Position numbers and translations under genes: made by a program. A DNA stretch of 64,000 bases. Source: Apostichopus japonicus (lineage: Eukaryota; Echinodermata; Holothuroidea; Aspidochirotida; Stichopodidae). Below the pieces are notes generated by a model that worked only from the letters and a program-made list of their open reading frames with translations, did no database searches and was not told where the DNA came from. The DNA is taken from positions 3,528,501 to 3,592,500 of the forward strand of contig NC_092569.1 in NCBI RefSeq assembly GCF_037975245.1, given 5' to 3'. Each line of letters begins with the position of its first letter. Positions within the stretch are counted from its first letter, which is position 1. This document shows positions 1 to 63,535 of this stretch, piece after piece.

Positions 1-3000
1 GTGGATGCAGTGGTGTAGTTGTAAGATCTCAGTACGTCAAGCCCAGCCAAATGACAGGTGACGTTAAAACTTGCATCCTGATTGACGGTACGGTACGACA
101 ATATCCCGTTGCCAACATACTCGTGGATACTCCATACTTCTCAGGTTCAGTTTCGGCCTTGTGTATGAATGATCCAGTCTATGATTTAATTTTAGGGAAT
201 GTCCCAGGTGTACGAGAACCTACCAATCCAGACCCGAATTGGGAAGAGTCACAGACACAGGATCAACCAGTACAACCACCACCAAATGTAACCAAGCCTA
301 TGGCAATAAGGAATGATGATGACCCAAATACAGTTGCCGCAGCACAGACAAGGAGTCAGAGCAAAGCAAAAGAGAAGCCCTTTAAAAAGTTAAAAGTATC
401 GTCCCCGATTGGTGAAGAGGTTACTGCAGACATGCTACGTGAAAAGCAACAACAGGACCCCACCTTGGAAAAAATCAGACAGTTAGCCGAAACAGGAGAT
501 GATAAAGTGAGTAAAAATGGGAGTACTCATAAATATGTGAAGTCCAGTGGCATTCTCTACAGAGAATTTAGTTCTCCTCGAGTGGAATTTGGAAACAGAT
601 TTAGGCAGGTAGTAGTTCCAGTTGACTACAGAGATCATGTATTAAAGGTAGCACACGAATCGATTCTAGGGGGTCATCAAGGATCCAAAAAGACGCGTGA
701 TAAAGTAATGAGTGACTTTACATGGCCTGGAATGCAAGCAGACGTTACCAGGTATTGTCAGTCGTGTGATGTATGCCAAAGAACCCTCCCTAAAGGTCGT
801 GTTACTAAAGTACCATTAGGAAGTATGCCGCTGATTGAAGAACCATTTCAAAGGGTAGCAGTAGACTTAGTAGGACCGATCAAGCCAGCCACAGAGCGTG
901 GACATCGATACATATTGGTTTTAGTTGACTACGCAACTAGATACCCAGAAGCAGTACCAATGAAAACCATTGAAGCTGAGTCAGTAGCTGAGGAACTCCT
1001 TGGAATTTATTCAAGATTAGGCTTCCCAAAAGAAGTATTAACTGACCAAGGATCTCAGTTTGTCTCTGGCGTCATGAAAGAAGTTAGCCGATTATTGTCA
1101 ATTCGCCGATTAACCACGACTCCGTACCATGCCATGTGCAATGGGTTGGTAGAGAAATTTAATGGCACATTGAAAGCAATGTTAAAGAAGATGTGCGATG
1201 AAAGGCCTAAAGATTGGGACAGATATATAGATCCCCTACTGTTTGCGTACAGGGAAACGCCACAGGAAAGCACAGGCTTCTCGCCATTTGAACTGCTATA
1301 TGGGCGGACCGTGCGTGGTCCTATGCGGATTCTTAAGGAATTATGGACCGGCGAATCAGAAGTAAGTGAGACGAAGACTGTGTACCAGTACGTGTTGGAC
1401 TTACAGGAACGTTTGGAGCAAACATGTCAACTAGCACGTGAGGAGCTCAAGAAGTCTAGACAAAGGTACAAAACGTACTACAACAAGAAAGCAAGAGTAA
1501 GAAACATGAAAGTAGGAGAAGAAGTCCTCCTCCTTCTCCCCACTGATAAGAACAAGCTACTTATGCAGTGGAAGGGACCATTTCCAATAGTGGAGAAAGT
1601 TGGTACAATGAACTACAAAATAGACTTTGGCCATAGGGTCAAAACATTTCACGCCAACCTGCTAAAGAAATATAACAGACGTGAAGTGGCAGCCACTATG
1701 TTCGAGATGCCAATACAAAGTATGTATGAAGTTGTCTGCACATCGGTTCTAGAAGATGAACCACAAGAGGAATCTGGTATATCTGAACTCAAATCATTTT
1801 CCACAGATGATCTTATACATCTTCCACCTATGTTTCAGAAGGAGCGAAGTACTGATGTGAATATCAGCGGACAATTAGGAAAAACAAAAACTCAACAGGT
1901 ACAACAAATATTGACAGAGTTTGAAGACAGTTTGACTGACCTACCGGGGAAGACAAAGCTCGGTGAACATGTCATCAAAGTCAGCGATACAACACCTATA
2001 AGGAGTAAACCTTATCCAATACCACATGCTCTTCGAGATGATATCCGCAAGGAGATCCAAAGTATGCTGAGGATGGGCGTAATATCGCACAGCAAAAGTC
2101 CATACGCTTGTCCGTTGGTAGCATTAAAGAAGCCGGATGGATCTTTGAGGGCCTGTTGCGACACACGCAAAATTAACATGATCACGGAGTTTGATGCTGA
2201 GCCTGTTCCAGACCAGGAAGAGATATTTGCAAAGTTATCCAAGGATTGCTACTTCAGTAAAATCGATCTGAGCAAAGGTTACTGGCAAATCCCAATGGCA
2301 AAAGAGTCGAAGCCATTAACAGCATTTGTGACTCATGATGGGTTATACGAGTTCAATATGATGCCATTTGGTCTTGTGAATTCTGGTGCTACATTCAACA
2401 GAGTGATGAGGAAGCTTCTTAAAGGAATTGAGAATGTCCATAGTTATGTTGATGATATCCTGATACACACTCAGACATGGGAGGAACATCTCCAGAGAGT
2501 AAAAGAAGTCTTCACAAGAATCAAGAAAGCCAACTTGACGGCTAGACCTACAAAATGTTTCATTGGGTACAATGAGGTGGAATTTTTAGGACATATTATA
2601 GGAGAAGGTAGAGTAAAACCCAAACCTGACAAAATTAAAGCCATTCAGCAAGCAGAGAGACCAACTACAAAGACTCAAGTGAGATCATTCTTAGGGTTGG
2701 TAGGTTACTACAGGAAGTTTGTACCAAACTTCGCAGCCGTGGCAGTACCACTGACTAACTGTACGAAGAAAGGTGAACCAAACGTGATTAGATGGGGCGA
2801 GAGCCAGGAACAGGCGTTCCAAACACTGAAGAGTAAGCTTGCAAGCTCACCGATACTTCAGCTCCCCGACCTCCACAGAGAATTCACACTTCGGACAGAC
2901 GCTTCGGATACAGGAGTTGGTGCGATCCTTCTTCAGGAGTTTGCAGGTGAAAAATTTCCAGTAGCCTATGCTAGCAAAAAGCTGAACAAGAGTCAAATGA

Positions 3001-3293
3001 GATACTCAGTGATGGAGAGAGAATGCTTGGCCGTAGTCTGGGCTGTACTCAAGTTTGAGCCATATCTCTATGGCAAGGAATTTGTAATAGAGACAGACCA
3101 TCAACCATTGACATGCATTCGGAAGTCGAAAGTGGCAAATGGAAGGATAATGAGGTGGGCACTGGCATTACAGCCATATCGTTACCGCATCCAAGTGATA
3201 AAGGGAGCCGATAATGTAGGGGCTGACTACTTGAGTAGAAGTACAGAAATAATGCAAGCCAATTTCTTATCCTTCATCAGCAAAGAGCTGTAA
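1..3293 (+). CDS. Gmr1-like Ty3/gypsy Pol polyprotein, 5' end cut by window
   Basis: The frame is open from the window edge (first full codon at base 3) to a TAA at 3291. Residues below count from the Met at base 51. The edge falls in the retropepsin active site (GCSGVVVR follows directly), and the protease ends near YDLILGNVPGVREP (44-57). Then come the integrase HHCC zinc finger (H202, H209, C239, C242) and the integrase core with D272, D332 and E368, which gives DD35E spacing. Next is reverse transcriptase (D739 in FSKIDLSKGYWQ, YVDD at 799-802) and finally RNase H (D950, E989 or E991, D1016, D1059). Integrase before RT is the reverse of ordinary Ty3/gypsy order and marks the Gmr1-like group. 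No stop or frameshift is visible across more than 1,080 codons and the catalytic residues are present, so the copy looks young. Gag and the 5' LTR lie outside the window. Confidence 0.93.
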   Translation, partial: GCSGVVVRSQYVKPSQMTGDVKTCILIDGTVRQYPVANILVDTPYFSGSVSALCMNDPVYDLILGNVPGVREPTNPDPNWEESQTQDQPVQPPPNVTKPMAIRNDDDPNTVAAAQTRSQSKAKEKPFKKLKVSSPIGEEVTADMLREKQQQDPTLEKIRQLAETGDDKVSKNGSTHKYVKSSGILYREFSSPRVEFGNRFRQVVVPVDYRDHVLKVAHESILGGHQGSKKTRDKVMSDFTWPGMQADVTRYCQSCDVCQRTLPKGRVTKVPLGSMPLIEEPFQRVAVDLVGPIKPATERGHRYILVLVDYATRYPEAVPMKTIEAESVAEELLGIYSRLGFPKEVLTDQGSQFVSGVMKEVSRLLSIRRLTTTPYHAMCNGLVEKFNGTLKAMLKKMCDERPKDWDRYIDPLLFAYRETPQESTGFSPFELLYGRTVRGPMRILKELWTGESEVSETKTVYQYVLDLQERLEQTCQLAREELKKSRQRYKTYYNKKARVRNMKVGEEVLLLLPTDKNKLLMQWKGPFPIVEKVGTMNYKIDFGHRVKTFHANLLKKYNRREVAATMFEMPIQSMYEVVCTSVLEDEPQEESGISELKSFSTDDLIHLPPMFQKERSTDVNISGQLGKTKTQQVQQILTEFEDSLTDLPGKTKLGEHVIKVSDTTPIRSKPYPIPHALRDDIRKEIQSMLRMGVISHSKSPYACPLVALKKPDGSLRACCDTRKINMITEFDAEPVPDQEEIFAKLSKDCYFSKIDLSKGYWQIPMAKESKPLTAFVTHDGLYEFNMMPFGLVNSGATFNRVMRKLLKGIENVHSYVDDILIHTQTWEEHLQRVKEVFTRIKKANLTARPTKCFIGYNEVEFLGHIIGEGRVKPKPDKIKAIQQAERPTTKTQVRSFLGLVGYYRKFVPNFAAVAVPLTNCTKKGEPNVIRWGESQEQAFQTLKSKLASSPILQLPDLHREFTLRTDASDTGVGAILLQEFAGEKFPVAYASKKLNKSQMRYSVMERECLAVVWAVLKFEPYLYGKEFVIETDHQPLTCIRKSKVANGRIMRWALALQPYRYRIQVIKGADNVGADYLSRSTEIMQANFLSFISKEL

Positions 3294-22800: not shown

Positions 22801-25800
22801 AGACTTTCTATTCTTCAGGAATGAGCCTGGGGTAAAATAAAAATCACGGAACTTTGCAAAAATTACGGTATAGGCTCCAGTTTGCGTATGCTACAGTGTG
22901 TTAGGATATAGTTTTTGTCCCAGAGGTAGAAAAGAAATCACGGATATTCCGCGAATTTGCGGAAAAAGCTCATGCCTGATTCTTTGTTTCAAAAGCCCCA
23001 CTACGGGTATCGTACCTGACAATGATACCTAGGAATGTGACCTGTTCGTCCACCAAAAACCAGGAATGATTCAAAATTATGCAAAAGAAATGACAAAACA
23101 TTGCCACACAAAATTATTATTTTTTTTTTTATAATCACTGTATTGTGACCACGTAGGTCTCTTAGGCAGATTTTAGAGATACTCGATTTGGACAGATATT
23201 CGTTAGGATCGTCAGAGGGGTTCAAGAGTTTTAAATTCAACAAATTTCATTTGAACAACTTTAAAAAGTTCTAATTTTCTTCAAAATTGTTCATCTCACC
23301 TTTGCTACTTATTCTTTGTATGCTGCTGCCAGTTTTTTCAATCAAACTTCTGAAGCTATTTTCATCTGAAACACAAAAAAAAAAACAGATTAAAATTTAG
23401 ACAATATATGTATTACATTGAAATAAGATCAAAATTGTTACCTGGAACTTTGGGCAGGGGGGGGGGATAGTGAGGTGGGGGGAGGGGGATAAATTACTAG
23501 CTGAAAATATTCATTTGAAATAAAGAAGACACCCTTCTCCATATGGCTGATTTCATTAAAACTGAGGGGAAGAAAATTGCATGTGTTTTCCTGGTGTTTA
23601 ACTAAATTGGATTAGTTTAACATGTTTCTACTAGTCCATACCATTGAAAGTCAATTTTAGTTACTAGATGGGGTGGGGGGGGGGGGGAGAAGGATAACAA
23701 GACAAGAACAATGCTTGCCATTGAACAGTCTTTAATATATTTACATATATGTAAATAATTTGTTAAATATACTTTTCACCAATTTTCCATTTTCTGAAAA
23801 GGAACATGTTGTAAGCCAAAGCATTTGTTTTTAACAAACCTAATGGAAAAATAATTCAACATTGTGTTTTTTTAATTTTTTATTTCATATTTTCTACTGA
23901 TGAAATCATTTTCCAGAATGGATGAATCGCCACACAGGGGCACCTGCAGGCTTTTCTTCCGTTCACTGGTCAATGTTTTGGTCAGTGTAACTATAAAAAT
24001 GATTCACCAAATGAAGTGAACAAATCTGCTTTAGAGAGATAACCAGGGAATACTGTATCAAGTTGAAACCGATGATCTATAAACTGTATTAAAACTCTCA
24101 GTGTACTCCTGATGATGATCACAAACTTTGTACCGGTTTCCTTCTTGATTCGATGAATTGCCATAAAAAGTACAAGATACTGTCATTTCTCCACCCTCAG
24201 ATAATTCAGTACAGTTTATAATCATTGTAATAATGAACGGTAATAAATTGTAATCATTTACATAGATAATGTTATCTTAAGCCATGGAAAGACATTTTGT
24301 GCGAGGCCACTTAAATTTAAAATTTTTAAAAAAAAAATCAAAGGTATTAGGCCCTATTCATTATTTATCTTGTGGAACAGTTAATCCCACAGATGCGTAG
24401 GTTGCCAAGGTCTTTTTGCCTTGTACTTCTTTCCTACTTTCCTAATTGTAAATATATTCCATATTTGTTTCATCTCATCAATTTTTGATGATTTTTTTTT
24501 TACACACAAGTTTGCTTTCTAAGAGGATGTAGTAACTTACATACTTAAGACCAAAAATACTGTGAGGCTTGCATAACAGATTCGTCAAAGTTGAGTAACT
24601 ATCGCAAAGTTCTGCAAAAAAGGTTGGGCAGTATTTTTCTTTCTTAACAACCCCTTCCCTAGCATTTTCTGACTTGCATCAAATGAAATTAAAGGTGCGG
24701 TCCCTGGTTTAGGGAACGCAAGGTATAATTGTAAGGAATAGCAATGTATTGCTCCCCACCAACTACAGACTCACTTGTTACAGCATAGGACTTATAATCT
24801 TTGCAAAGGCATTTTTTTATTCAAATGCTGTTCTTTGCTCTTTTCAAAATATGTTTATAATGAACCAAAGGTTTCTATTTTCTGTTGTTAATTAATATTT
24901 CATTAAATTTTATATTTTTATGTGCGAAATGTTGCACACTGAGGCATATTCTCTTTAGGCTACAAATCAGGTCTAAAACTAGTCTACACGCAAGGTCGTG
25001 CTAATTACTACTGGAAAAAATATTATGCTTTATGCCACAACTTCTCAATAGGTGGCTCCCTGGCAAAATTCAAACCTGCGACTGAAGAAAAAATTCAATT
25101 CGGCCAGAGAATAAATAAAATCGGTCCAAGATCTTGCATTACATAGGTGACCATGTGGACATCATAAGGCCTTAGGCTTTCAAGAGCAGCCTACCAGTCT
25201 AACCTGTACACAATATGATAGCATTTTTTATACACTAGTCGATTTGTTTCTCTAGCCTTCATAGAATATTATTTGAGCATGTGGGAAACCATAAGGCCTT
25301 AGGCTTTTAAAGAGCAGCCTACCAGCCTAACCTGTACACAGTATGATAGCATTTTTATTGTCTGGCCCTTTACACTAGTCGATATGTTTCTCGAGCCTTC
25401 ATAGAATATTAATTGAGCATGTGGAAACCGTAAGGCGTTAGGCTTGAGCAGCCTATCAGCCTAACCTGTGCACAGGTACTGTACAATATGATGGCATTTT
25501 TATTCTGTCTGGCCCCTTACACTAACCAATATGTTTCCCCTTCATAGAAAATATTTAACTGAGAATCGCTGCTTGAACTAAATTGACGACCATGGACAAG
25601 GGGATAACATCCCCATTATACTCTTTTTTTTGCTCCATGTCATCCAAACTTCTACTAAGATCTATGCATGTTTGTCCCAGTAGTGGGAAAAAAAAATATT
25701 ATAATTCATGAAGGATAAATGCTGATGAAAAACTTACCTGCATTTGCTTGCAAAAATGACCCTTCAGAGTCATCCAGGGCTCCATAGCCAAACTCTCCTT

Positions 25801-62399: not shown

Positions 62400-62530
62400 A
62401 TATCTACAAAATTAGGATACCCACCCACAGACTAAGAGTTGTCTGATGATCGCTCAAACGCGTGAAAACTCTGAGTAACAACTACTAGTGTTCCACTAGT
62501 CTCAACTAATTCTCACCTAGCCTATATAAT
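62400..62530 (+). mobile_element. probable Penelope-like element remnant around the hammerhead motif
   Basis: The segment around the hammerhead-like core continues with TACTAGTGTTCCACTAGT (containing an ACTAGT palindrome pair) and then an AT-rich tail. Penelope-like retroelements carry short hammerhead ribozymes in their terminal repeats. No reverse transcriptase or GIY-YIG endonuclease frame is seen, so at most a fragment is present. The limits are approximate. Confidence 0.4.
62437..62483 (+). ncRNA. hammerhead-ribozyme-like motif (type I, minimal stem III)
   Basis: Stem I is AGTTGT (62437-62442) with ACAACT (62478-62483), six pairs. The core CTGATGA is at 62443-62449. Stem II is CGC/GCG around a TCAAAC loop, with a T-T mismatch next to the core. 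GAAA begins at 62464. Stem III is ACT/AGT with a CTG loop, and the cleavage-site base is A at 62477. One extra A (GAAAA) and the missing usual G-C pair next to the core are departures from consensus, so activity is uncertain. The layout matches minimal hammerheads of Penelope-like elements. Confidence 0.5.
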
Positions 62531-63189
62531 ATGTATATAATATTTATATAGATATATATTTATATAAATGTATATAAATATCATCAGTTTCCTTCTTGTA
62601 GCCCGGATGTTCCCCCATTTCTATTATAATACCATGATTCTTTTCCAGAAACCATTCCACTTTTTGACGTGTTAATCAACTATGCTTCATTTAGAGCTCA
62701 GAGTTTGGTTTTTGGCAGAGCTATCGAGCACAACTAGCTCTTCCTCAGTGGTCAGTGATCACCGGAAGTGACAAGGAGTCACAGGAAGTGAAACTGTTTA
62801 TGGAAGAAGAGTGTCGGCATGGCAGTGAGGTCGATGCGACTTACATATTTCTGTTGGATTAGCATAAGTTTTGGAAAATCGGATTATTTTTTAATCCGTG
62901 TCGGATTATTTTAATCCGATTCCGTCGTAACTTCAAAGGAATTGCTTTGACGTATCTGGGACGGCAGGTCGTTCCTGATGTTTAAACCGACTGGTGTTTA
63001 GATTAACTTCCCAGAACTTTTGTTTTCCTTTTCTAGATTTGTCTGTCCAAGAATCGTTCTGGTCAATGGCAATAACACGTTAATTCCTCAATCAAATGAT
63101 TTGAGGAAATTGAAATGATTTGCAACAGTTCGGTTCATCTTTTTCGTTTTGATCGCCGATCTATGTTGAATTATCTCATTTTGAAAGGC

Positions 63190-63465
63190 CACAGTAGAAG
63201 GAAAATTCTTACAGTGGGATGACGTCCCTTCCTTACCGGTTTCAAACCTCTGGACATAACAATCAGTTCAAAGTATCTCTTTAGAGATCCGGCTTTAGGA
63301 ATCACAAGTGATTTTCGAGTTGGTTAGCATCATGTTTGATCTCTAGAATGAGGCAAAATATGTCACCAAAAACAGAACTAGTATTGTTCGATACAGGTGT
63401 CAAACGCCTACAGTGAAATTACGACCTTCCTTACCAGTTTCGAACCTCTGGACATACAATCAGTG
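63190..63465. repeat. pair of short direct repeats upstream of the tRNA-like unit
   Basis: CCTTCCTTACCGGTTTCAAA with CCTCTGGACATAACAATCAGT at about 63221-63270 recurs as CCTTCCTTACCAGTTTCGAA with CCTCTGGACATACAATCAGT at about 63424-63464, directly before the tRNA-like unit. Confidence 0.6.
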
Positions 63466-63535
63466 TCCATGGCCTAGTTGGTTAGGGTGTCCGCGTACAA
63501 AGCGGGAGGCCCGGGTTCGAATCCCGGTGGAGGCT
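63463..63535 (+). tRNA. tRNA-like unit, anticodon ACA, probably the head of a SINE
   Basis: The 73 bases fold as a cloverleaf. The acceptor arm GTGTCCA/TGGAGGC has six of seven positions paired (one wobble), the D-arm has AGTTGGTTA in its loop, the anticodon stem TCCGC/GCGGG has loop GTACAAA (anticodon ACA at 63497-63499), and the T-arm CCGGG-TTCGAAT-CCCGG is perfect. A T run (63541-63546) follows, as for Pol III termination. ACA would read a Cys codon, but an A34 Cys tRNA, a G at position 32, a G-G acceptor mismatch and the tail ending in an AT microsatellite all point to a SINE or a tRNA pseudogene rather than a working tRNA. Confidence 0.55.

Follow-up and report, generated by a model that had tools for sequence, protein, structure and literature searches.

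A probable solo terminal repeat of a Penelope-like element, with a variant minimal hammerhead fold, in the sea cucumber Apostichopus japonicus

PMC7761336 describes the minimal hammerhead ribozymes (HHRs) of Penelope-like elements (PLEs) as probably dimeric in action and states that no role of the hammerhead in these elements is known. PMC11167929 treats the tandem units of PLE terminal repeats (pLTRs) together with the HHR and reports, for the element PAc (Poseidon of Anolis carolinensis), that hammerhead mutants were without effect on insertion and that unprocessed RNA was the dominant insertion substrate. Here we describe a sequence that lies in a stretch of 64,000 nucleotides (nt) of Apostichopus japonicus DNA (contig NC_092569.1, positions 3,528,501 to 3,592,500, forward strand; hereafter the window). 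We hold it to be very probable that window positions 62436 to about 62519, with homology reaching to 62581, are a decayed solo pLTR copy from a PLE family that carries a minimal type I hammerhead. The biology is of a known kind; the family is new.

Fold and variation of the hammerhead family

An earlier note, made from the letters of the window, had pointed to hammerhead parts in the right order within 47 bases, and the fold proved to be as described. These bases (62437-62483) read as a six-pair stem I, CTGATGA, a short stem II, GAAAA and a three-pair stem III, in hammerhead order. A relaxed type I descriptor, which was composed after the site had been seen and which admits the mismatch in stem II and the extra A, matched this site and no other on both strands of the window. 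On 300 randomized versions of the window drawn from a third-order Markov model, the same descriptor gave 0.0033 matches per copy when stem I had at least 6 pairs and 0.02 when it had at least 5. A covariance model (R2) was built from 14 motifs at loci selected by their match to a reverse transcriptase (RT) protein piece (see below), leaving out the window and every copy retrieved through its resemblance to the window. R2 gave the window site 53.1 bits (expect value E 2.1e-12), its sole match up to E 10 in the 64 kb.

When a 241-base query around the site was searched against the 671.6-Mb genome, 1541 first-look candidates were obtained and 40 places, including the window, were scored; 39 of the scored places were retrieved and inspected. 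Apart from the window itself, the main matches share 84-88% identity across about query positions 57-202 (from window position 62436), so that the start of the repeat falls on the opening bases of the hammerhead. To follow variation we aligned 46 BLAST matches from 39 loci (those that start by query position 12 and reach position 70, shorter matches being dropped) with the window, giving 47 copies that were picked by similarity to the window and not by core letters. The positions of the 45-nt hammerhead that most often differ from the majority are H17 (18 of 47), a loop II base (16), the centre of loop III (13) and N7 (9), and next come the bases that open stem I and lie at the copy edge (7 and 4 of 47). 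Core positions other than N7 (CUGANGA and GAAA) differ in at most 1/47 copies, and the cleavage nucleotide, H17, is never G (Table 1). The four most variable positions are all tolerated ones, with p 0.0014 if the ten tolerated positions are taken as N7, loop II, loop III and H17, a value that serves as a guide only because the copies are related.

The earlier note had read the extra A and the T-T mismatch either as making activity doubtful or as defining a variant, and the two departures turned out to differ in kind. The mismatch is a family trait: 47/47 close copies carry U.U at the stem II foot (positions 10.1-11.1). The extra A, in contrast, is a defect of single copies: GAAAC stands in 44/47, GAAAAC in two (the window and L014) and a mutated form in one. 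Because it carries the extra A, the hammerhead copy in the window is probably inactive and probably without function at the locus.

Of 17 diverged motifs from the RT-selected loci, 15 have U.U and two (both in L073) have U.C at the stem II foot; they give no independent proof of U.U, because the pattern behind 14 of them admitted only U at 10.1 and, at 11.1, only U or C. Patterns without the demand for U revealed no other foot at these open reading frames (ORFs); the one exception is a distinct set of motifs whose stem II reads GTCC/GGAC (L080, L049). Since a canonical hammerhead has G-C in this position, U.U makes the family a variant rather than a canonical type I member. Stem III is ACUC-N-GAGU or a similar palindrome in 17/17 diverged motifs and, being self-complementary, could be shared by two copies.

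The same 17 motifs served as the covariation set, in which both L073 motifs represent one locus in two orientations. Fourteen of the rows were chosen by core letters and not by pairing, and the last three with R2, which scores pairing. Thus, the invariance of the core in the 17-motif alignments is a product of selection, and the pairing in the fourteen is not. On the hammerhead pairing, 94.1% of cells are paired and 8/12 pairs are changed on both sides, with 16 such cells, and these two-sided changes fall in all three stems. The values for paired fraction, two-sided pairs, two-sided cells and covariation score were reached by 0/500 shuffles, and when the structure was slid along the alignment, no more than 3 pairs showed changes on both sides. 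In earlier alignments of 36 and of 14 rows the count was 6/12 pairs each time. L096, which is in no model, has CACCUC/GAGGU(U) as stem I and UGC/GCA as stem II. These compensatory changes speak for structural constraint on the family hammerhead.

Two further observations concern stem II. In L082 (2517-2577) it is unusually long (CGCU...AGCG plus GUACAA/UUGUAC), with the U.U foot kept. A second hammerhead-like family has a canonical-looking stem II (GTCC/GGAC or decayed) and was seen at L012 1071-1117 (minus), L080 3943-3986 (minus) and L049 3348-3406. When RF00163 was run on 10 sister loci, it matched only this second motif, at L012 1071-1117 (minus), with 25.5 bits, under the 34-bit cut-off.

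Open reading frames and copy ends

Some copies of the repeat adjoin protein pieces (L049 4748-5332; L053, minus strand) with PLE-like motifs, which we take to be those of PLEs. A search with a piece of 195 amino acids (aa) gave 151 matches, three of the best of which have 821-aa open frames. From this list 20 loci were drawn by protein match alone. The descriptor found a type I hammerhead in 13/20 of these RT-selected loci and the core pattern found it in two more (L077, L078); in L067 the hammerhead is inverted relative to the protein match. L076, L083, L084 and L085 hold a weak or broken hammerhead (25.5 to 12.2 bits), and L074 holds none. A second model (R1), which was trained on sequences from most of these loci, gave E 3e-9 or better in 15/20. 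In 12 further loci, where only the 801-901 bases upstream of the protein match were examined, R2 found the motif in 3/12 (43.8 to 72.3 bits); all three motifs lie outside R2 training, and two of them (L088, L092) are close to R2 members.

In L068 and L071, an HHR, an 821-aa open frame (stop to stop) and another HHR follow one another with a unit length of 2601 nt, and in L071 the frame starts 82 nt past the hammerhead motif. The family thus carries a minimal type I hammerhead both upstream and downstream of a PLE-like ORF. Direct and inverted copies as well as head-to-head junctions occur in the family, in agreement with PLE pLTR architecture. Read by eye, the 821-aa frame contains YRDD and IYKAEV...YIGL, presumably motifs of an RT and of a GIY-YIG endonuclease. 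Since the ORF has no library match, the PLE label rests on these motifs and on architecture. A phage collection gave no match to the 821-aa protein.

In the window, tblastn with three PLE ORF fragments (E up to 1e-3) found none, and Pfam found no RT in the six frames from 4 kb on; the Pfam scan says nothing on PLEs, because Pfam also misses the 821-aa PLE-like frame. The link to a PLE that the earlier note had drawn holds at the level of the family, whose motif flanks PLE-like ORFs elsewhere; at the window locus itself the tblastn search showed no ORF fragment. The search for tandem copies and a nearby RT that it had proposed showed no tandem copies and no PLE fragment in the window.

Several observations on the PLE-like loci stand beside these results. 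The stem II 3' arm and GAAA are deleted in PLE-end copies at L076 1748-1794, L083 1640-1677 and L085 2075-2115 (all minus), and the ribozyme seems to have been lost in some lineages. Among the matches to the PLE-like protein piece, a group with about 29-37% identity sits close to the ends of contigs and may be subtelomeric (for example C21:181640, C11:110149, C20:257043 and C4:29504235). The 821-aa PLE-like protein P0001 (L071 1404-3866, minus) escapes the Pfam and NCBIfam models, and scans of that kind would miss the family.

The ends of the copies are informative about their templates. TA-rich DNA lies on the 3' side of 36/42 classified sister copies, a set that leaves out the window with its extra A. 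The base before the motif is C in 15/15 element-internal copies; in 32 free-standing copies the base before AGTTGT is G in 21, C in 4, T in 4 and A in 3. Internal and free-standing copies were told apart by a pattern on the upstream letters, and some labels are debatable (L003, L029, L045); the pattern labelled 34 copies free-standing, two of which, L081 and L082, were reassigned on inspection to the element-internal copies of another subfamily. The excess of G has p 2.6e-8 for 21/32 against 0.2 and p 2.8e-6 for 17/28, the latter with the three two-G head-to-head loci counted once and the window dropped, its numbers being set by hand. Since only an exact AGTTGT was counted, copies broken inside stem I drop out; in addition, the ranking of the copies followed their similarity to the window copy, itself a carrier of the G. 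Seven distinct head-to-head junctions (e.g. CAACTC-A-GAGTTG) have G on both arms in three cases, on one arm in three and on neither in one.

The extra G before stem I suggests a capped RNA start there. We infer that element RNA starts at stem I and that the extra base is derived from the cap, another source of GAGTTGT being possible. Because the free-standing copies retain the whole motif, their templates were uncut at that hammerhead, and the window copy, which holds an entire hammerhead, likewise came from a template that was not cleaved there. A search of the loci for the hairpin 3' of the motif (Table 1) found 48 copies, 43 of which retain the 5' core letters CTGANGAT, in a sample with a bias, the hammerhead being part of the similarity by which most loci had been selected. 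The remaining five consist of four mutated or shortened hammerheads and one copy (L058) that starts near the cleavage site.

Alternative readings and a proposed role

Several results weigh against the reading of the site as part of a hammerhead-bearing PLE repeat. The Rfam hammerhead models gave no match up to E 10, in 447 bases around the site or in the whole window, and the site did not reach the RF00163 gathering score; the type I covariance search that the earlier note had proposed thus ended at background level. That note had paired such a background score with a lack of better-formed relatives as grounds for giving up the fold. The former is true for Rfam and the latter is false, given the GAAAC copies without the extra A. 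The folding energy of the 47 bases is at shuffle level (z -0.04), and the energies of five sister motifs are also no better than those of shuffles. The family lacks a standard pair at 10.1-11.1, a fifth covariation measure (further pair types) was reached by 164/500 shuffles, and 5/20 RT-selected loci and 9/12 further 5' flanks are without a good hammerhead. For the 821-aa protein, Pfam gave no match and NCBIfam only noise below the cut-off, and PDB sequences gave none in a single-sequence search and two, at E 3 and 4.1, in a profile search.

The silence of Rfam, the shuffle-level folding energy and a descriptor that was fitted afterwards would all suit a chance resemblance, in which repeat hairpins look like a hammerhead with no ribozyme history. 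We give this next to no probability, because two-sided pair changes run through all three stems across diverged elements, including L096, which has a different stem I and took no part in any model, and because the most variable positions are the tolerated ones. A metazoan retrozyme (a short tandem repeat that is non-autonomous, bears a canonical type I hammerhead and spreads as small circular RNA) would fit the short solo units, the animal genome and the type I topology, and retrozymes co-occur with PLEs according to PMC7761336. However, the window has no tandem units of 150-450 bp with a hammerhead, many copies start at stem I and 36/42 end in TA-rich DNA, the same sequence flanks PLE-like ORFs, and the hammerhead is minimal and not canonical, all of which makes a retrozyme very unlikely. 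Every core letter is present at the site, bar one inserted A, which would favour a ribozyme that is still active at the window locus or exapted to process a host transcript. The inserted A lies beside A15.1, however, the copy is one among many scattered ones, and no protein domain above cut-off was found at 59-64 kb; continued activity or exaptation is thus highly improbable.

For the family from which we derive the decayed solo pLTR copy, a mechanism can be sketched. RNA from a tandem unit would carry two hammerheads 2601 nt apart, each folding poorly alone, which would be more likely to pair via the self-complementary stem III (ACUC-N-GAGU). The title of a 2017 study by Lunse, Weinberg and Breaker reportedly bears on such dimer action of minimal PLE hammerheads. 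The paired hammerheads would cleave after H17 and release unit-length RNA. The RT of the element, primed on TA-rich target DNA at the 3' side of the pLTR, would run to the RNA 5' end, namely the first base of stem I, and add a G at the cap. Were transcription to start at that base, cleavage would take off some 40 nt of capped leader. We therefore put forward, tentatively and as a somewhat doubtful proposal, that the hammerhead is the 5' end of a capped element RNA whose leader may be cut off, splitting translation from insertion template; that RT may copy uncleaved RNA to the cap; that head-to-head copies may be two joined cDNAs, one per target strand; and that the core may work with U.U.

Genomic copies record where the template RNA started. 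In our sample this is often stem I and not the cleavage site, which points to insertions from uncleaved RNA. The question of what the hammerhead does in PLEs thereby becomes one of counting copy starts, which is feasible in any PLE-rich genome. The family also consists of hammerheads that the Rfam type I model does not report.

Feature coordinates, neighbouring sequences and known systems

Table 1. Parts of the terminal-repeat copy in the window (positions are those of the window)
Feature	Position	Strand	Remarks
Extra G before stem I	62436	+	C in 15/15 element-internal copies, G in 21/32 free-standing copies; putatively cap-derived
Stem I, 5' strand AGUUGU; 5' edge of the repeat copy	62437..62442	+	Pairs with 62478-62483; homology starts near 62436
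Catalytic core CUGAUGA	62443..62449	+	N7 = U; A or C in some sister copies
U.U mismatch 62450/62463 around stem II CGC (62451-62453)/GCG (62460-62462), loop UCAAAC	62450..62463	+	
GAAA and one surplus A	62464..62468	+	Shared with L014 only (2/47 copies)
Stem III ACU-CUG-AGU (62468-62470 with 62474-62476)	62468..62476	+	ACUC-N-GAGU is self-complementary
H17 = A, predicted cleavage 3' of this base	62477	+	In copies: U 29, A 17, C 1, G 0 of 47
Stem I, 3' strand ACAACU	62478..62483	+	Pairing and covariation
ACTAGTG-TTC-CACTAGT hairpin of the element's terminal repeat	62484..62500	+	
Tail of the terminal-repeat fragment, then AT-rich sequence	62501..62581	+	

The rest of the window holds features of other kinds. 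At 3-3293 there is a 1096-aa open frame with integrase domains ahead of RT and RNase H, i.e. a Ty3/gypsy-type pol in copia-like order, which we take to resemble Gmr1 elements. Exon-like matches were seen to CFAP95 (best E 5e-17, within 9-34 kb) and to a homeodomain (best E 1.5e-13, within 34-59 kb). None of the five tandem arrays in the window (at 25148, 32714, 34286, 55371 and 57681; unit size about 50 to 140 bp) contains a hammerhead by descriptor or model R2. A tRNA-like sequence at 63463-63535 (49.2 bits) looks like the head of a short interspersed element (SINE), and a 58-bp sequence at 63210-63267 is repeated at 63409-63464, ending where the tRNA-like sequence starts.

The topology and core letters of the family are those of RF00163 (Hammerhead_1), which gave no match up to E 10 for the window or for family copies in 10 loci. 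The closest described systems are the minimal type I hammerheads of PLEs, as presented in PMC7761336, PMC6155905 and PMC7229834 (and, through these, of Cervera and de la Pena 2014 and Lunse 2017). They are alike in the type I topology, the very short stem III, the location in the pLTR, the dispersed copies and a probably dimeric action, whereas in the family described here stem II starts with U.U or, rarely, U.C. A literature search for hammerhead, sea cucumber and Penelope found no prior mention, and we do not claim the U.U trait or the start point as unreported. With the Penelope elements of Adineta vaga, as described in PMC3846280, the family shares an ORF of similar kind (842 aa in one A. 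vaga family), direct and inverted pLTRs and head-to-head junctions. Those authors prefer self-priming on an antisense template; here, the G on both arms of 3/7 junctions suggests instead that two sense-RNA ends were joined. PAc (PMC11167929) is likewise a PLE with an ORF, an HHR at its pLTR and AT-rich targets, and the copies that appear to derive from uncleaved templates in A. japonicus agree with the PAc assays.
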